Source: Thermodesulfovibrio sp. 3462-1 (GTDB lineage Bacteria > Nitrospirota > Thermodesulfovibrionia > Thermodesulfovibrionales > Thermodesulfovibrionaceae). From it: DNA of 64,000 bases. The position numbers were made by a program, and so were the translations under genes. The stretch lies in NCBI RefSeq assembly GCF_040451425.1, contig NZ_CP144374.1, positions 1,404,501-1,468,500 of the forward strand, read 5' to 3'. Positions 21,228-46,145 of the stretch are shown here, in pieces (within the stretch, counting starts at the first letter, position 1; each line of letters begins with the position of its first letter). The notes under the pieces are model-generated. The model worked only from the letters and a program-made list of their open reading frames with translations. It did not search any database and had not been told where the DNA came from.

Positions 21228-21342
21228 GGGGTTATGATGATGGGACAGAAATTAACTATAAAATCTATTTAAAAATTACATTAAAAAATTAAATAATTTT
21301 ACATCTATCTAAAGTGGATCTCTCCACCATCATCATAACCCC
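21228..21342. repeat. 16-bp perfect inverted repeat in rny leader
   Basis: GGGGTTATGATGATGG (21228-21243) is repeated as its exact reverse complement at 21327-21342. The 83-nt interval is very AT-rich. It lies between the 6S RNA 3' end and the rny start, on the transcribed strand of rny. It could fold as one long-looped hairpin in a 6S read-through or rny leader RNA, or be the ends of a small mobile remnant. No terminal duplication is obvious. Confidence 0.8.
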
Positions 21343-21510
21343 GCCCTGCCGTGTGATAAGGAAAGTTAGATCCCCTTCTGACAAGTGGGTGCCTTGTAGG
21401 TAGGTTAGGCTTCCTCCGAAGAGGCATGCACACCGCTACCTACGCTGGCTCCCTAACGGATCTAACTGCCGGATCCCCTTTCCCTTCCATCACGAGCAGG
21501 GCAGGAAGCC
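21343..21510 (-). ncRNA. ssrS: 6S RNA
   Basis: The minus-strand transcript folds as a long rod: GCCCTGC at the 5' end (21502-21496) pairs with GCAGGGC at the 3' end (21349-21343), and GTGAT with ATCAC lies inside. The apical part reads GTGCATGCCTC, a loop, then GGAGGAAGCCT, closely matching the E. coli 6S segment with GAGCATGCTC and GAGAAGCCT. 6S RNA mimics an open promoter and binds sigma70 RNA polymerase. The length of about 160-170 nt is normal. The 5' end is set by a candidate promoter at 21520-21549. The exact ends are estimates. Confidence 0.85.
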
Positions 21511-35734: not shown

Positions 35735-36934
35735 TTACTCCAGCACCTCTGTAACTACACCTGCACCTACTGTTCTTCCACCTTCTCTTATGGCAAACCT
35801 CAATCCCTCTTCCATTGCTATAGGTGCTATCAACTCTACTGTGAGATTTACGTTGTCACCAGGCATTACCATCTCCACTCCCTCAGGTAACTTTATCACT
35901 CCTGTTACATCTGTGGTCCTGAAATAAAACTGCGGCCTGTATCCATTGAAAAAGGGTGTGTGCCTACCACCTTCTTCCTTCGTCAATACATAAACCTCTG
36001 CCTTAAATTTAGTATGTGGCGTAATACTCCCTGGCTTAGCCAATACCATCCCACGCTCTACTTCATCCTTGCCTATACCCCTAAGCAAAACTCCTATGTT
36101 GTCCCCTGCTCTTCCTTCGTCAAGTATCTTACGAAACATCTCTATCCCTGTGGCTACTGTCTTGCGTGTCTCCCTTAGTCCCACTATCTCTACTTCATCT
36201 CCTACCTTTATTATCCCTCTTTCTACTCTCCCTGTAACTACTGTCCCACGACCAGAGATGCTAAATACATCCTCTATGGGCATTAAAAATGGCTTGTCTA
36301 TCGGTCTCTCAGGCTCAGGAATGTAGTTATCCAACGCATCAAGTAATTCCTGGATGGGTTTATACTCAGGTGCATTCGGATCTCTACTGGAACTCTCCAG
36401 TGCTTTCAGCGCACTACCCCTCACTACAGGTATCTCATCACCAGGAAATCCATACTTGCTCAGTAGCTCCCTTACTTCAAGTTCTACTAAGTCCAACAGT
36501 TCAGGATCATCTACCATGTCTGTCTTGTTCATAAATACTACTATGTATGGTACCCCTACTTGCCTGGCAAGCAGTATGTGCTCCCTGGTCTGCGGCATTG
36601 GTCCATCATTTGCAGCTACTACAAGTATTGAACCATCCATCTGTGCCGCTCCAGTTATCATGTTCTTTATATAGTCTGCATGCCCAGGACAGTCTACATG
36701 CGCATAATGACGCTTTTCTGTCTCATATTCTACATGCGCTGTGTTTATCGTTATCCCCCTTGCTTTCTCCTCAGGTGCATTGTCTATCTGATCATAACTC
36801 CTGTACTGCGCCATCCCCTTGAGCTCCAGATACTTCGTTATCGCTGCTGTCAAAGTGGTCTTGCCATGGTCAATATGCCCAATTGTCCCTACATTTACAT
36901 GCGGCTTCTTCCTCTCAAACTTTGCCTTTCCCAT
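35735..36934 (-). CDS. tuf: Elongation factor Tu
   Basis: EF-Tu, 399 residues, delivers aminoacyl-tRNA to the ribosome. GTPase motifs [18 protein letters not shown] and NKTDMVDD are intact, followed by domains 2 and 3 ([18 protein letters not shown], then FRTTDVTGV). It follows four tRNA genes as in the E. coli tufB locus. Codon use differs from its neighbours, with more G-ending codons (AGG, AAG, GAG, GGG) where neighbours use A-ending ones; this may reflect high expression or gene conversion with a second tuf copy. Confidence 0.97.
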
Positions 36935-38475: not shown

Positions 38476-39292
38476 ATGACGGAAATTGCTGTCTTAGTCA
38501 GTTTTCTCATTGCATTCTGCGTAGGTTCAAATGACGCATCCAATGCATTGAGTATATGTGTAGGTTCTGGAATAATTAAACTCAAAAGAGCAATATTACT
38601 TTTTGGTGGTCTTGTATTTGTAGGAATAATGCTTCAAGGAAGTAAAGTAATGAAAACTGTTGGTAAAAATCTTGTAGATGTAAATCTCTCAATTCTCATT
38701 GTCTCTATGACAGTTTCGGCATTTTTAATAATATTTTCAAATTGGCGTAAACTTCCACTTTCTACTCATCAGGTAATAATTGGAAGTTTAATTGATTCTG
38801 CTGTGGCTGCTGGTGTGAATGTAAACTTTTCAGCATTTCTTAAAATAGTTATCTCCTGGGTTATCTCTCCTTTTATGGCAGTGGGATTTTCTTTTGTCTT
38901 TTATAAAGTTCTTGAAAAAACTATTTCAAAATTTTCTTTCTTTCAGATTGAAAGAATTCTAAAAGTTTTGCTTCTTTTAAGTGGATTTTTAATTTCCTAC
39001 AATACAGGAGCAAATGAGCTTGCCACAGTGCTTGGACCTGACAACACTTGACCCCTTTTCAGGCTTTTCTGCTCAGTTTGGAGCTGGATGCTGTGTTCTG
39101 TTCTTTACTTTTTTAGGAATGCCTGTTTCTACCACTTACTGTATAATAGGTGGCATTGTAGGAGTTGGATTGACAAAGGGAATTAAAACTGTTAAAGTAG
39201 AGCTTCTTAGAAAAATGGCTCTTAATTTTATAATTGCACCCTTAATAGGCTTCATTATTTCTTTTATTATTATGAAATCAATTTATTCGTAG
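38476..39292 (+). pseudogene. PiT-family phosphate transporter, internally deleted
   Basis: Frame one (38476-39051) encodes the N-terminal PiT half with the GSNDASNA and STHQVIIG signatures and ends shortly after GANELATVLGP. The C-terminal part (LDPFSGFSAQFGAG, PVSTTYCIIGG) lies in the +1 frame to 39292. Compared with PiT proteins of about 320-330 residues, about 50-60 residues are missing at the junction, so a deletion plus frame change is more likely than a single sequencing slip. Phosphate uptake by this protein is probably lost. It overlaps the opposite-strand protease gene by 15 bp. Confidence 0.75.
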
Positions 39293-39718
39293 GTATTCCT
39301 TTATCCTGGATACAGCTTCTGGAATTGCTGACTCTACCCGAGGAGAGCACTGTCTGCTTAAAGTTTCCACATCCTCTACTTCTATCCCGATGATTTTTAT
39401 ATCGTTTGGCATTTCATCTGGAAACACTGAATAACCAATCCTTATAATTTCAAAGATTGAAAAATTATGAGTTCCACTGGCATAGACATTTCCCCAGAAG
39501 TCTGCATTAAATTCAACAATGCTTCCAGGCTCTTTTCCTGTTTTTACTCCATCCACAATCACTGCTCTGTCATACCCCAATAATGCATCAATTAGATTAA
39601 AACCTATATTTAAAAATACAACAGTATCAACAATTCCTTCAAAATGTTCAACTACTTTTAAACCCACTCCATCATCTTTAAAATTAGGATTACCAATACC
39701 AATAATTACGCTTTTCAT
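39278..39718 (-). CDS. NiFe hydrogenase maturation protease
   Basis: This is a 146-residue member of the HycI/HyaD-type endopeptidases that remove the C-terminal tail of hydrogenase large subunits after nickel insertion. GIGNPNFKDDGVG and IVDGVKTGKEPG carry the nickel-binding acidic residues. It is 65 bp downstream of mvhA, separated by a GC-rich hairpin, and is the last gene of the hdr-mvh run. Its expected substrate is MvhA, whose tail continues past the C-terminal CFAC motif. Confidence 0.88.
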   Translation of the reverse strand: MKSVIIGIGNPNFKDDGVGLKVVEHFEGIVDTVVFLNIGFNLIDALLGYDRAVIVDGVKTGKEPGSIVEFNADFWGNVYASGTHNFSIFEIIRIGYSVFPDEMPNDIKIIGIEVEDVETLSRQCSPRVESAIPEAVSRIKEYLRIN

Positions 39719-39783: not shown

Positions 39784-41253
39784 TTAGCCTAATTCATAAT
39801 TTCTTAGGCTTTTTATAACCTCACCATGATGGTCAATTATGTCAATTTTTACTGGAATTCTTCCAGGAAGTGTATGGGTTGAACAGGCAAAGCAAAGATC
39901 ATAAGGACGATAGGCAATCTCAACAAGATTAAGAATTCCTTCGTCAATTTTACCATTCTTAATAAAGTTCTGGGCAGCTCTCTTAACTGCTATGTTTATA
40001 GATCCTTTGTTGTGAGTTGTGGCAACAATAAGGTTTGCATCAGTAACAATACCTTTTTCATCTGTTTTGTAATGATGAATCAATGTGCCTCTGGCTGCTT
40101 CAACAATTCCCACACCTTCACCAACAGGACTGCCAAGCTCCTGACGAACATTTGGATCTGTAATGCTTTCATCTGAAGCAATCTTTTTCACAGTCTCTGC
40201 AGCATGCATTAACTCAATTGCTCTCGCCCAGTGATAGGCTAATGTATTGTGAACAGGTTTGCCACCAAAGGCAGTAACCATCTTCTCATAAGCTTCCTGT
40301 GCCAAAGGAGTGTCAAATCCGCTTCCAACATTAAATCTTGCAAGTGGTCCTACACTGTAAATGCTTGTTCCATCTCCATCAACAAAACCTTTCCATCCAA
40401 TTTTTTTCAAATATGGAGCCTTCTGATAGCTCCATGGAAGTGTTTTTTCTGCAATATAATCAAGATACTGTATTCCTTTAAATCTGCCTAATTCGTTTCC
40501 TTTGGTATCAACAATCTTTTGTGTTCCGTCATAATATATAACTTTGTCATTGTCATCAACTGTTCCAACATAATTGGTGACCACCTTATAAACATCACCT
40601 GTAACTAAAGCCATGTATTCTTTATTTTGCAGCACAACCTTATCAAATACATCAAGAGTTAATTTAGCAAGCTCAATACAGTCATCAGCACATTTAAGAA
40701 TCTCCTGCCTTTCTTCTTCTGTGATTCTCTTTGACCAACCACCTGGCAGTGCTGCAACTGGATGACTGGTTCTTCCACCGGTGATCTCAAAAATTCTTAC
40801 TGCTGAGAATCTCTTTTTTAATACAAGCTTTCCAACATCTGCACCTACTTTTAAAATAAGACCTATCAGGTTTCTCTCAGCAGGTGAAGCTGTTGGACCG
40901 CATACAAAATCTGGAAAACCAAGAGCATAAAGAATTCCTGTGTGGTCTTCTACAATATGGGCATTATAAAAAAGTTCTCTTATTTTTTTTGCTGTAGGAG
41001 TTGGTTCAACTCCGTAAACTGCATCTGCAGCCTTCACTGAGGCTGTGAAATGCACACCCCTTCAAACTCCACAGATAGTGCTTACGGTTCTAGGAACTTC
41101 CTCAATAGGCATACCTATGAGAAATTTCTCATATCCCATGAATTCAACAACCTGCAGAAAAGCATTATCAACATTTCCTTGTTCATCAAGGAAGATAGTA
41201 ATTTTTCCATGACCTTCAAGTCTTGTCATCGGATTAATTTCAATTTTCTTCAT
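39784..41253 (-). CDS. mvhA: MvhA-type NiFe hydrogenase large subunit with in-frame TGA
   Basis: Read through one internal TGA, this gives 489 residues. The N-terminus has INPMTRLEGHGKI and FMGYEKFLIG; the C-terminus has DLCFACSTH and a 27-residue tail for protease removal. The TGA at 41062-41064 lies where the second nickel-binding cysteine of the L1 motif belongs: CGV, TGA, RGVH, matching CGVCPxxH with the conserved His in place. The frame is open before and after it. A hairpin starts 7 nt after it. The start ATG 41253 follows a G-rich ribosome site. Selenocysteine is the simplest functional reading; a nonsense mutation is the alternative. Pro of the usual DPCxxC is Leu. Confidence 0.85.
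41020..41054 (-). promoter_or_regulatory. SECIS-like hairpin candidate after the mvhA TGA
   Basis: On the minus strand TGCAT (41054-41050) pairs with ATGCA (41024-41020), and CAGCCT (41045-41040) with AGGCTG (41033-41028), leaving an internal loop and a 6-nt apical loop. The apical loop starts 22 nt after the TGA, within the bacterial SECIS range. No G is in the first two loop bases, which is not ideal. Confidence 0.4.
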
Positions 41254-41308
41254 TCCCTTTCCCCCCTTCTGGGTTATTTTTCTTATTATATCTCTTAAGC
41301 CCATTTTT

Positions 41309-42265
41309 CTATCTCTTTATTCTTTTACCAAGAAAAGAGCTTGGCAGTGTATATCTATAAAAAAGATGAACAGGATCTGGAATCTTGTCAACAAGCTCTT
41401 CATTGTCAAGCATACTTGCTATAGCGCTTATTGCCCTGAGGCCAAAGTCTTTAACTCCAGGAATTGGTCCTCCACAGCCTCTACATGGAATATTTGCAGA
41501 AGGACATTTTGCTCCACAGTCACCCTGTGTTACAGGACCAAGACATAGATATCCTTCTTCAAGAAGACAGCCGTCTTCACTTGGTGCTCCATCAATTGTT
41601 CTTTTTACCTCAGTTGCAAGCTTTTTGGGTCTGCCTTTTAACACTGGATTTCTATCGCACACTTCGCATACTGCTTTACCCATTGTAATCCATGAACCAG
41701 GAGGTGGAAGCTGACCAGAAAGTAAAGCTGTAAATGCCTTTGCTATGTGTTCATGATAGGGAGGACATCCACCAATGTAATAATCCACTTTTACAACCTG
41801 ATCAAGAGCTCTTGCATCCATTAAAGTAGGTAAAGTTAATTCATATTTGCCATCAACGACAACAGTTGTCTGTGGTAATACTTTTTCTGGATTATCTGTA
41901 CTAAAAGTGTTTATATAGGCTTTATCGAGCAACTGCTCTGTTGTATGTAAATTTACAAGTCCTTTAATTCCACCACAGGATGCACATATTCCAAAGGCAA
42001 TAAGAACTTTACATTTCTGCCTCATTACCTTAGCAATGTGCTCGTGCTCAGAGTTTCTTATATTTCCAGAAATTAATCCCACATCAATTGAGCCATCAGG
42101 CATTGCTTCAAGGTCTTTATATTTTGCATCAGCCACTGTTGGTGCCCAAAAAACTATATCTAATTGAAGAGCAACATCTACCAGTGCTTCAGATAAATCT
42201 ACAACAGCTATATCGCAACCACCACAGCCACCGGCAAGATAATATGCAAGTTTAGGCTTGCTCAT
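41309..42265 (-). CDS. mvhG: MvhG-type hydrogenase small subunit
   Basis: This 318-residue subunit carries the iron-sulfur clusters that lead electrons from the NiFe site. GGCGGCDIAV, GICASCGG and GGCPP form the proximal cluster ligands. A later set of cysteines (CEVC; CLGPVTQGDC, then CPSANIPCRGCGG) suits two more clusters. It is cytoplasmic with no Tat signal, as in group 3c Mvh enzymes. It starts 4 bp inside mvhD and is followed by mvhA after 55 nt. Confidence 0.92.
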   Translation of the reverse strand: MSKPKLAYYLAGGCGGCDIAVVDLSEALVDVALQLDIVFWAPTVADAKYKDLEAMPDGSIDVGLISGNIRNSEHEHIAKVMRQKCKVLIAFGICASCGGIKGLVNLHTTEQLLDKAYINTFSTDNPEKVLPQTTVVVDGKYELTLPTLMDARALDQVVKVDYYIGGCPPYHEHIAKAFTALLSGQLPPPGSWITMGKAVCEVCDRNPVLKGRPKKLATEVKRTIDGAPSEDGCLLEEGYLCLGPVTQGDCGAKCPSANIPCRGCGGPIPGVKDFGLRAISAIASMLDNEELVDKIPDPVHLFYRYTLPSSFLGKRIKR

Positions 42266-42678
42266 TGTGCCCCTCCTTTCAATGGATTTGGTCCAAGCTG
42301 TCTTATTTTGGCATCGAACTCTGTCATAGCTTCAGAAAATCTCTTGCCTTCACTTCCTGAAATCCATTCAAGCTGAATTCTTTCAGGCTCTACTCCGAGT
42401 TCTGTAGCAACACGCTTAAAGAGTTTAAATCTTCTGATTGCTTTGTAATTACCTTCTTTATAATGGCAGTCACCAAAGTGGCATCCACCTATAAATACTC
42501 CATCTGCTCCTCTTATGAGGGCTTCTGCTATAAATTCTGGTTCAACTCTTCCACTACAGGGCACCCTTACTATATGCACTGTAGGAGGATAACTATAACG
42601 GAGACTTCCTGCCAGGTCTGCCCCTTGATATGTGCACCATTGGCAGGCAATAACAATAAGTCTTGGCTCCCATGCCAT
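42262..42678 (-). CDS. mvhD: MvhD-type electron-transfer subunit
   Basis: This 138-residue MvhD/FrhD-like iron-sulfur protein links the hydrogenase to HdrA. Five cysteines (CQWC, PCSGRV, GCHFGDC) suit the [2Fe-2S] cluster of this family. In several anaerobes this family has selenocysteine at one of these positions, but here all are ordinary cysteine codons. It overlaps mvhG by 4 bp and starts 2 nt after hdrB ends, so it bridges the two halves of the operon. Confidence 0.92.
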   Translation of the reverse strand: MAWEPRLIVIACQWCTYQGADLAGSLRYSYPPTVHIVRVPCSGRVEPEFIAEALIRGADGVFIGGCHFGDCHYKEGNYKAIRRFKLFKRVATELGVEPERIQLEWISGSEGKRFSEAMTEFDAKIRQLGPNPLKGGAQ

Positions 42679-42680
42679 CT

Positions 42681-43577
42681 TTAATTCCCTCCTTTTATTT
42701 TAGTTATTATTCCATTCAAAGGAATTGATGCCTGCGCAGTTGCTTTTTCAACATCCGCACCCATTGCTATAGCTGCAAGCTGCACAATGTGAAGAGCAGG
42801 AATCTTATAGTCAAGTTTTTTCTGTTCTACTAATAAAGCTTGCCCAGCATCAAATTGTAGTAAACAGGAACTACAACCAATGACACATAAATCAGGATCA
42901 ATTTCCTCTTTTATAACATCCAGCTTCTTTTTGAAAAGAGCAAGAGACTTTTCAGATGCTGTTGACCTCAATGCACCCATTCCACAGCAATCAGTTATTG
43001 TGCTGTAATGAGGGGCTATACCACCCATTGACTCACATATTTCTCTCAATCTTTTTGGAAAGAATGTATTGTCTTCATTTGTAGGATAGGCTTTGCTTGG
43101 CCAGAGATTGTGGCAACCTGTCTGCACAGCACATTTTACTCCATTAAGATTGTATTTAATTTTAGATTTAAGAGTATCAAGCCCGATTTCTTCATAAAGA
43201 AAATTAATGAAATTCCACACTTTTGTAGTCCCTTTGTATTGTTTCCCAACCTTACCAAGTATCTTATTAACCTGCTCTTTAATTTCAGGGTGCTTTTCCA
43301 TGTGATATCTTGCTTCATTTAAAGAACCATAACAAGAGCCACAGCCTGTAATTATGTCAACGCCCTTTTCTTCAGCAATACTTAAATTCCATGCTGCTGC
43401 AGCTGCCCATCCTACTAAATCCACTGATGGCATAGTTCCAAAGGCAGGACAACATGCAGCTCCTTCAAGCTCTACAATTTCAACGCCAAGTTCATTTAAC
43501 ATATATCTTGCTGAATACTCAACATCTGGTCTATTGAAAGGTATGTTACATCCAAGGAAAAATCCTATCTTTTTCAT
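42681..43577 (-). CDS. hdrB: Heterodisulfide reductase subunit B
   Basis: HdrB, 298 residues, has two CCG domains that bind noncubane [4Fe-4S] clusters where disulfide is reduced in methanogens. The first is FFLGCN, ACCPAFG and TGCGSCYGS; the second QTGCHN, DCCGMG and GCSSCLLQ. In a bacterium without CoM/CoB the partner thiol is unknown, and a sulfur-metabolism acceptor such as DsrC-like protein is possible but not shown. It is 11 nt from hdrC. Confidence 0.9.
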   Translation of the reverse strand: MKKIGFFLGCNIPFNRPDVEYSARYMLNELGVEIVELEGAACCPAFGTMPSVDLVGWAAAAAWNLSIAEEKGVDIITGCGSCYGSLNEARYHMEKHPEIKEQVNKILGKVGKQYKGTTKVWNFINFLYEEIGLDTLKSKIKYNLNGVKCAVQTGCHNLWPSKAYPTNEDNTFFPKRLREICESMGGIAPHYSTITDCCGMGALRSTASEKSLALFKKKLDVIKEEIDPDLCVIGCSSCLLQFDAGQALLVEQKKLDYKIPALHIVQLAAIAMGADVEKATAQASIPLNGIITKIKGGN

Positions 43578-43588
43578 TTCTCTCCTCC

Positions 43589-44125
43589 TTAATCAAGCGG
43601 GAATGGTGCTATTTCTTCCAGGATAGTTTGCTTTAAAACTTCCTGGTACTTTTTCCTTAATTCATCAAAGCTCAATGCTGTTGGTGGTTTCTCTGGCAGA
43701 CCTGCTTTCTTTCTTCTTTCTTCAAATCCCTTTGGAAATACCGCATGACCGAACTTATATAAATTTCTTAAACCCTCATAGGTATTTGCAGGGCAGGACT
43801 CTACCTTAATTGCTGCTCTTCTTAATGCCTGAATTACTTCATAGGGTTTTATATCCATCGGACATATTTCAACACAACGGTTACAGGACTGGCATCCCCA
43901 TATAGAGGAATCCTCAAGAAGAATATCTCTTAAACCAAGATTGGCTGCATGAACTATCCTTTTAATAAAAAATTCTAATCCTGCTAATGCCATGGGACAT
44001 GTAGCTCCACATTTTCCACACTGTATGCATTCTCTTAATTCATCTGCGCCTAATCCTATTAATTCTTTTACAAAGCTTTCATCTGCCTGCGTAAGATCAA
44101 TTACATTTACACCACCTTCTTCCAT
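43589..44125 (-). CDS. hdrC: Heterodisulfide reductase subunit C
   Basis: HdrC, 178 residues, carries two [4Fe-4S] clusters (CIQCGKCGATCP and CQSCNRCVEICP) and passes electrons from HdrA to HdrB. The C-terminal region is helical with charged residues and no membrane segment, so it is the soluble form. It lies between hdrA (19 nt) and hdrB (11 nt), all with GGAGG-type ribosome sites, an operon in the order A-C-B. Confidence 0.9.
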   Translation of the reverse strand: MEEGGVNVIDLTQADESFVKELIGLGADELRECIQCGKCGATCPMALAGLEFFIKRIVHAANLGLRDILLEDSSIWGCQSCNRCVEICPMDIKPYEVIQALRRAAIKVESCPANTYEGLRNLYKFGHAVFPKGFEERRKKAGLPEKPPTALSFDELRKKYQEVLKQTILEEIAPFPLD

Positions 44126-44144: not shown

Positions 44145-46145
44145 TTATGCTTCAGCTAATGCATCAATCTGTGCCAGAATTTGCTCAGTTGTAAATCCAT
44201 GGAATGTAATCGCTCTTGATGGACATGCGCTGGCACAAACGCCACATCCTGCACAAAGAGCAGGTTCAATATATGCTTTTTCTTTGCCTTTGTATTCTTC
44301 AAGTTTTATTGCTCCATATGGACAAAGAGGAACGCAAACACCGCAACTGCTGCATTTTTCTCTATCCACTTCAGAAATAATTGCTTCAAATTTAATCTTA
44401 CCTGGGATAACCAAAGCAGCTGCTGCAGAAGAAGCTGCACGTGCCTGAGCAATTGACTCTGGAATATCCTTTGGACCTTGCACACATCCTGCAAGAAATA
44501 CTCCTTTGGCAGCTGTTTCAACTGGATAAAGCTTGGTATGAACCTCCCTTAAAAATCCTTCTCTTCCACATGTTGCTGCAAAAAGTCTGCCAAGTTCCTC
44601 TGTTCCTGCTGGAGGTTCAATAGCTGTTGCTAAAACAACCATGTCTGCCTCAAGCTCAACAGGAGAGCAAAGGTCAACATCAAAACCTCTCACTCTGAGC
44701 TTCCCATTTGGTTTTACATCAACTGCTGAAACTCTCCCTCCTCTGATTACCTTGACGCCCAATTCTTTTGTATAAACATAGAATTCCTCAAAATCTTTTC
44801 CTGCTGTTCTTACATCTATGAAAAAGAGATAAAGCTTGATATCCGGATATTTTTCTTTAAGAATTCTTGCGTGTTTTAGCATATACATGCAGCATACTTT
44901 TGAACAATAGGTATGATATCTCTCATCACGGCTTCCAACACAGGATATAAATGCAATGGTCTTTGGCTTTGTTCCATCAGAAGGTCTTTTAAGTTCTCCC
45001 TCTGTTGGACCTGTAGCTGAAAGAATTCTTTCAAATTCCATTGCTGTAACTACATCCGGGCTATGAGGCGAGTATTCTTTAAAGTGAGTTTTTTCCATTA
45101 CTTTGTATCCTGTTGCAAGAATCACTGCACCAACCTTAAGATTTACATACTCATCTTTATCATCAAATTTTATTGCACCTGCTGGACAACCCTGTATTCC
45201 CTTAGGTGGGATTCCTTTTTCACAAATCTGGCAGGCTGGTTTGCCTGTTTTATCCATTGATTTGAAATAAAGACAGTTTGCTCTATCAATCACTGCCTTT
45301 TTTGGAACAGCCTGGGGAAACTCAATATAAGCTGCCCGTCTCTGATTCATTCCAAAGTTATATTCATTAGGAACCCTTGAAGGACAAAGTTGAGTACAGA
45401 CACCACAGCCTGTGCATTTATCCCAGTCTATATATCTTGCCTTTTTCTTAACAGTAATATCAAAATTACCCACATAGCCCTTTACAGCATCCACTTCTGC
45501 ATAGGTAATAAGTTCAATATTTGGATGCTGAGCTACTTCAACCATCTTTGGAGTAAGAATACACGCTGAGCAATCCATTGTTGGAAATGTTTTGTCAAGC
45601 TTTATCATCTGTCCACCAATTGATGGCTGTCTCTCAACAAGATAAACCTTAAGCCCCATATTGGCAAGGTCCAAAGCTGCAAACATTCCTGCGACTCCAC
45701 CACCAACAACCATTACAGACTTTTCCATATCACCATAGCGATCATAAAGAGGCTCTGCCAATTTCACTTTTGCTACTGCGCTTCTTATGAGTCTTTTTGC
45801 TTTCTCTGTAGCACCGGTTTTATCATGCCAATGAGCCCAGCTATCTTGGTCTCTGATGTTAGCCATCTCTAAGAAGTATCTATTAAGTCCTGCTGATTCC
45901 ACAGCATCTCTAAAAATTGGCTCATGAGTTCTTGGTGTACATGCTGCAACAACCACTCTATCAACTACTCCATCTTTAATATCCTTTTTAATAATCTCCT
46001 GGCCTGGATCTGAACACATAAAAAGATAATTTCTTACAACAGCTACATCTGGAAGAGTCTCGGCATATTTCACAACTTCTTCAATGTTCACCGCACCTGC
46101 AATATTCTCTCCACAATGGCATACATACACCCCTATCTTTGCCAT
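44145..46145 (-). CDS. hdrA: Heterodisulfide reductase subunit A (flavin, bifurcating)
   Basis: HdrA, 666 residues, is the flavoprotein where electrons from hydrogenase are split. The N-terminus has VYVCHCGENIAG, then an FAD fold with GGGVAGMFAALDLANMG, and MDCSACILTPKM. A 4Fe-4S site lies in CTGCGVCTQLCP, and two more at the C-terminus (CSSCGVCVPLCP, CAGCGVCASACP). The length is typical of single HdrA. It is the first gene of the operon and follows a -35 TTGACA and a GGAGG site. Confidence 0.92.
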   Translation of the reverse strand: MAKIGVYVCHCGENIAGAVNIEEVVKYAETLPDVAVVRNYLFMCSDPGQEIIKKDIKDGVVDRVVVAACTPRTHEPIFRDAVESAGLNRYFLEMANIRDQDSWAHWHDKTGATEKAKRLIRSAVAKVKLAEPLYDRYGDMEKSVMVVGGGVAGMFAALDLANMGLKVYLVERQPSIGGQMIKLDKTFPTMDCSACILTPKMVEVAQHPNIELITYAEVDAVKGYVGNFDITVKKKARYIDWDKCTGCGVCTQLCPSRVPNEYNFGMNQRRAAYIEFPQAVPKKAVIDRANCLYFKSMDKTGKPACQICEKGIPPKGIQGCPAGAIKFDDKDEYVNLKVGAVILATGYKVMEKTHFKEYSPHSPDVVTAMEFERILSATGPTEGELKRPSDGTKPKTIAFISCVGSRDERYHTYCSKVCCMYMLKHARILKEKYPDIKLYLFFIDVRTAGKDFEEFYVYTKELGVKVIRGGRVSAVDVKPNGKLRVRGFDVDLCSPVELEADMVVLATAIEPPAGTEELGRLFAATCGREGFLREVHTKLYPVETAAKGVFLAGCVQGPKDIPESIAQARAASSAAAALVIPGKIKFEAIISEVDREKCSSCGVCVPLCPYGAIKLEEYKGKEKAYIEPALCAGCGVCASACPSRAITFHGFTTEQILAQIDALAEA

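Follow-up and report, generated by a model that had tools for sequence, protein, structure and literature searches.

A predicted selenocysteine at a bridging nickel ligand of the MvhA hydrogenase subunit in Thermodesulfovibrio

The hydrogenase gene mvhA of Thermodesulfovibrio sp. 3462-1 carries an in-frame TGA exactly where the second cysteine of its L1 motif belongs, and it is highly probable that the gene encodes a selenoprotein: SelB and tRNA-Sec would read UGA64 by means of a hairpin, Sec64 would bridge nickel and iron, and the subunit would work in an HdrABC-MvhADG complex. The sequences themselves show the operon, the decoding machinery, the conserved UGA with its hairpin, and purifying selection; insertion of selenium at codon 64 is very probable. 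Homologues elsewhere very probably extend this to a widespread second kind of selenocysteine hydrogenase with a bridging selenolate. The gene lies in the window, a stretch of 64,000 nucleotides (C1:1404501-1468500) from a genome of 1.82 Mb in a single contig; positions below are those of the window unless prefixed C1.

39784..41304, minus strand: mvhA, large subunit of a [NiFe] hydrogenase, containing a single in-frame TGA; alternative start at 41253 (MKKIEINP); Pfam NiFeSe_Hases, E=3e-27
41062..41064, minus strand: TGA codon 64, predicted selenocysteine at the second cysteine of L1, from conservation and alignment to 5odc
41071..41073, minus strand: TGT, Cys61, first cysteine of L1, invariant in its alignment column
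39278..39718, minus strand: HycI-family hydrogenase maturation protease; Pfam PF01750, E=4.5e-11
41309..42265, minus strand: mvhG, hydrogenase small subunit; Pfam Oxidored_q6, E=9e-24
42262..42678, minus strand: mvhD, delta subunit, without in-frame TGA; Pfam FlpD, E=3e-51
42681..43577, minus strand: hdrB; Pfam CCG
43589..44125, minus strand: hdrC; Pfam 4Fe-4S dicluster domain
44145..46145, minus strand: hdrA, FAD and 4Fe-4S protein, without in-frame TGA; Pfam Fer4 and Pyr_redox_2

With codons numbered from the MKKIEINP start, the minus strand at 41062-41073 reads TGT-GGA-GTT-TGA, followed by AGG-GGT-GTG-CAT, giving an L1 of CGV-TGA-RGVH. Read through the TGA, the frame runs from an ATG at 41304 or at 41253 to a stop at 39784-39786, with 80 or 63 codons, respectively, before the TGA and 425 after it. 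In [NiFe] hydrogenases the second cysteine of L1 and the second cysteine of L2 both bridge Ni and Fe. The L2 motif is intact (DLCFACSTH), and the Ni ligands are encoded by three cysteine codons and one TGA, in place of the four cysteines of group 3c MvhA. A first-pass annotation, made from the sequence alone, had pointed to the TGA at the second L1 cysteine and to 425 open codons beyond it with CFAC kept at L2; the codons, the frame and the alignment to 5odc confirm both.

By operon, fold and sequence, mvhA belongs to group 3c MvhA. A Pfam scan places hdrA, hdrC, hdrB, mvhD, mvhG, mvhA and a HycI-type maturation protease in that order on the minus strand, which is the hdrABC-mvhDGA operon of this group. 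The best sequence match of the product is 5odc_F (E=6e-102), from the crystal structure of MvhA of Methanothermococcus in HdrABC-MvhADG, and the TGA aligns with the second cysteine of its RICGIC..H. The same entry is the top PDB match (TM 0.85) of an AlphaFold model from 28 loci with a mean pLDDT of 85. Subunit, operon, fold and motifs are thus shared with 5odc, which differs in having cysteine at L1 residue 64, where selenocysteine is predicted in mvhA. Among NCBIfam families VhuA is the top match, yet it reaches 380.6 bits against a cut-off of 800.

The genome holds the machinery for reading UGA as selenocysteine, the genes for SelA, SelB, SelC and SelD being all present:

C1:102731: SelB gene, 398.7 bits against a cut-off of 242
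C1:1498522: SelA gene, 617 bits
C1:1312503: tRNA-Sec (SelC), anticodon UCA, 73.9 bits
C1:324402-325322: selD (L167), 374.8 bits, with its own in-frame TGA

By its sequence (VKAAG-U-AAKIG, the Sec codon being TGA), SelD is itself a selenoprotein, which provides another UGA-Sec gene in the genome, and a hairpin stands behind its UGA at a distance similar to that in mvhA. By the usual genomic criteria the organism would therefore be taken to decode UGA as selenocysteine. That some other tRNA inserts cysteine or tryptophan at UGA64, leaving an ordinary [NiFe] enzyme, would accord with the cysteine that homologues have at this position. Such decoding is very improbable in a genome that has a complete Sec system with tRNA-Sec(UCA) and uses it for a further gene, selD, and given that the hairpin close to the UGA is lacking from the Cys orthologues; nor is there any sign of a general UGA reassignment, since the genes on either side read intact with table 11. 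Among the 47 genomes behind the pattern matches described below, 40 have a tRNA-Sec scoring at least 60 bits, and the other seven are draft MAGs. Presence of the tRNA is no guide to whether an orthologue is of the Sec or the Cys type, for it is found in 14 Cys-type genomes of the Desulfoscipio order as well.

Conservation of the codon bears most directly on whether the TGA is real. It is found at codon 64 in 10 of the 13 Thermodesulfovibrio members with a close copy (TGT in the other three), as well as in two genomes of a sister genus (G166 and G341); because these share the codon, it is not a product of chance or read error. Nor is the TGA peculiar to one read set, independent assemblies of isolates and MAGs being in agreement. 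A second Nitrospirota MvhA type, only about 49% identical (L025, L061, L062, L072), has TGA at the same codon. The in-frame UGA is thus conserved where homologues have cysteine, far beyond the genus. Strong purifying selection acts on the codons 3' of the TGA: six pairs give dN/dS of 0.016-0.047, and a seventh gives 0.12. A stop inside an essential motif is what a decaying pseudogene would display, and a sequencing error could produce one as well. The probability of either is practically negligible, and this reading is refuted by conservation, since many species and phyla, sequenced independently, share the TGA; the dN/dS values (0.02-0.12 when rounded) and the co-occurrence of TGA with Sec machinery also speak against it. 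Neither TAA nor TAG was found at the L1 Sec codon among the homologues opened; both were counted within some phylum-search matches, never at L1 in the loci opened.

Downstream of the UGA lies a hairpin that resembles a bacterial SECIS, at the position, just behind the codon, expected of a selenoprotein gene:

41028..41045, minus strand: SECIS-like hairpin, six-pair stem CAGCCT / AGGCTG closing the loop CAGTGA, at 19-36 nt downstream of the first TGA base

The hairpin is present in all 47 non-redundant MvhA-type TGA genes and in 2 of 31 Cys homologues (Fisher p 2e-19, uncorrected for phylogeny). The register was chosen on the same genes as were counted; a hold-out set outside the hairpin definition agrees, with 6/6 Sec against 0/13 Cys genes (L195, being in the first set, is excluded from this count). 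Part of the stem follows from the protein, as the hairpin overlaps a conserved peptide, xASxKA. Because this peptide favours part of the stem, synonymous codons were resampled with each gene's own usage, and the hairpin was expected in 5.07 of the 47 genes; among homologues encoding the same xASxKA it occurs in 47/47 Sec and 2/21 Cys genes. The case for the hairpin is carried by third codon positions and by the comparison with Cys genes. RNAalifold, unprompted, predicts the same helix, with 0 of 216 cells broken, and pair counts give compensatory evidence in three pairs changed on both sides. In one Nitrospirota MvhA type the hairpin is shifted by one. Simple folding energy gives no separation of the two kinds of gene (mean z -1.00 for Sec, -0.95 for Cys); only the positioned hairpin tells them apart.

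The same region offers another way of expressing the gene, in which the UGA ends the first product and a second polypeptide is started anew at GTG 41055, analogous to the split VhuA/VhuU. This GTG stands 7 nt after the TGA and has AGGGG directly before it, but at one or two bases from the GTG that AGGGG is too close for a ribosome site, and other lineages (TGA-CCC-GCT-GCA-CAC) are without a start codon there. Neither product would hold the bridging ligand, and re-initiation leaves the TGA-linked hairpin unexplained; a split gene is extremely improbable.

In the preferred reading, decoding of UGA64 as selenocysteine, the SelB/tRNA-Sec system would be directed to codon 64 by the hairpin starting about 19 nt downstream. 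Sec64 would replace the second L1 cysteine while the other three Ni ligands remain cysteine, and its selenium would form one of the two atoms bridging Ni and Fe (a mu-selenolate), a geometry suggested by homology to 5odc. MvhA would then act in the cytoplasmic HdrABC-MvhADG complex, which would oxidise H2 and split its electrons. First guesses at the benefit are faster recovery from oxidation and a shifted electronic structure of the Ni-Fe site.

To our knowledge, the terminal ligand, which also carries protons, is the only site at which hydrogenases have selenium in nature. Cys-to-Sec variants of Hyd-1 and Hyd-2 were reportedly engineered by Evans et al. (PNAS, 2021), as cited in PMC11212049. 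The [NiFeSe] hydrogenases (HysA of Desulfovibrio; Vhu and Fru of Methanococcus) resemble the predicted enzyme in having a Ni-Fe site with one cysteine ligand replaced by UGA-encoded selenocysteine, and in their link to sulfate reducers and H2-linked metabolism. They differ in the site: their selenocysteine takes the place of the first, non-bridging cysteine of L2 (UxxC), a terminal ligand (PMC13188914, PMC9312934, PMC11212049), whereas mvhA has CGVU at a bridging position in L1 and CxxC, with an ordinary first cysteine, at L2. The first-pass annotation had described the known enzymes in the same way as these sources, and in reviews of prokaryotic selenoproteins, the latest from May 2026, hydrogenase alpha subunits appear only as UxxC, that is, at L2 (PMC13188914; PMC9312934). 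The annotation's further statement that no enzyme had been described with selenocysteine at the bridging L1 position holds in part: searches of the main texts of the open-licence literature turned up no natural enzyme described as having selenocysteine at L1 or at a bridging ligand, but the L1 position has been so engineered in E. coli Hyd-1 and Hyd-2 (PMC11212049). The newness of selenocysteine at a bridging L1 ligand applies to nature only. In E. coli Hyd-2, variants with selenocysteine at each of the four ligands, Cys64 included, were all active, though less so, and the variant at HybC Cys64, the equivalent of Sec64, was active in H2 oxidation (PMC11212049), which by analogy suggests that the chemistry is feasible. 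Unlike mvhA, these are laboratory constructs of group-1 enzymes with native cysteine, in which selenocysteine was directed by UAG (PMC11212049). Selenium would not be foreign to the Hdr-Mvh complex, as sulfate reducers and archaea have Sec-containing MvhD and HdrA; there it sits in the delta or HdrA subunit, whereas mvhD and hdrA of the window have no in-frame TGA.

About 85,000 species genomes were scanned once with a pattern for an L1 motif containing TGA, which returned 61 loci. Upstream and downstream translations identify 59 of them, most from other species, as hydrogenase large subunits with TGA at the L1 codon; L094 and L129 were rejected as chance pattern matches. Many of the 59 are on MAG contigs, contig ends truncate a few, and in L105 a stop follows after 327 codons. 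They comprise 45 MvhA-type and 14 group-1-type loci, and by record titles come from Nitrospirota, Bacillota, Chloroflexota, Desulfobacterota, Acidobacteriota, Krumholzibacteriota, Latescibacterota, KSB1, Stahlbacteria and Cloacimonadota. Wherever an L1-Sec sequence extends far enough to include L2, that motif is CxxC. Cultured Bacillota are represented by Desulfoscipio geothermicus DSM 3669 and Desulfotruncus alcoholivorax DSM 16058; in the order of the former, all 17 copies at least 74% identical have TGA, and translations place the D. geothermicus gene between mvhG and protease/hyp genes.

The group-1-type genes, with QRICGVU-T/P..H at L1, belong mostly to Desulfobacterota, Nitrospirota and Chloroflexota, and apparently represent a separate gain of L1 selenocysteine. 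They are L073, L080, L090, L092, L093, L098, L099, L109, L110, L114, L117, L120, L123 and L128; translations show L117 next to hyp genes and to genes for a protease and a membrane subunit. Hairpins follow the UGA in these genes as well, in varying registers, and support from the hairpin is weaker for group 1, no single SECIS register common to all 14 having been found. A tree of 81 group-3 sequences, made with the trait column masked, requires 6 changes of the Sec/Cys label; at least 3 of them are forced by well-supported branches, the sampling being biased since Sec genes were sought by pattern. Together with group 1, these changes imply several gains or losses.

The first-pass suggestion of a new kind of selenocysteine hydrogenase is supported by the Sec machinery and by the conservation of TGA across the genus and beyond. 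Its scope, upheld for Thermodesulfovibrio, proves much wider, taking in about ten phyla and hydrogenases of group 1 as well as group 3. It is quite probable that there exists a second natural class of selenium hydrogenase, with selenium bridging Ni and Fe, which arose more than once (in group-3 MvhA and group-1 uptake-type enzymes), is common in anaerobes of many phyla, and is missed by databases in which its genes read as broken.

Within Thermodesulfovibrio (L009-L021), two of the three members with cysteine, both near-complete genomes (G011, G013), have tRNA-Sec, selA and selD. Because Cys orthologues occur in close relatives with Sec machinery, selenocysteine is optional, not essential, and the Sec and Cys mvhA of this genus form a natural pair for enzyme comparison. 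Five genomes (G414, G420, G425, G426, G444) have both Sec and Cys MvhA paralogues, L198-L202 with L097, L086, L102, L103 and L124. The Cys-type L202 (G444) has extra cysteines in the L1 region (CGVCRCVHFTCSCK) beside the bridging ligand, and similar RCVH forms occur in L230, L232 and L233.

Methanococcus has such a Sec/Cys pair in Vhu and Vhc. The five paralogue-bearing genomes, being like it, give some ground for regarding the UGA as a selenium-dependent switch, which would permit full-length MvhA only when selenium is available and assign selenium no special catalytic role. As the whole explanation this is rather unlikely: most TGA genomes show one close copy only, and a switch would still insert selenocysteine at the bridge, which makes it more an addition to the bridging-selenolate reading than an alternative.

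If a bridging selenolate is indeed present in these hot-spring and deep-subsurface bacteria, evolution has used a different site for selenium, probably for another purpose. There would then be natural enzymes for testing the role of each Ni-Fe ligand, and the question of why selenium improves hydrogenases could be put in a new way. Ordinary gene calling, it is suggested, cuts a whole class of hydrogenase in two, and surveys of H2 metabolism may undercount it.

Elsewhere in the window, a 6S RNA lies on the minus strand at 21334-21510 (Rfam RF00013, 74.4 bits). The genome has two EF-Tu-like genes of near-equal score, L002 and L003 (C1:1602108, C1:1440493), one of them in the window at 35735-36934; the pair is probably a tuf duplication.
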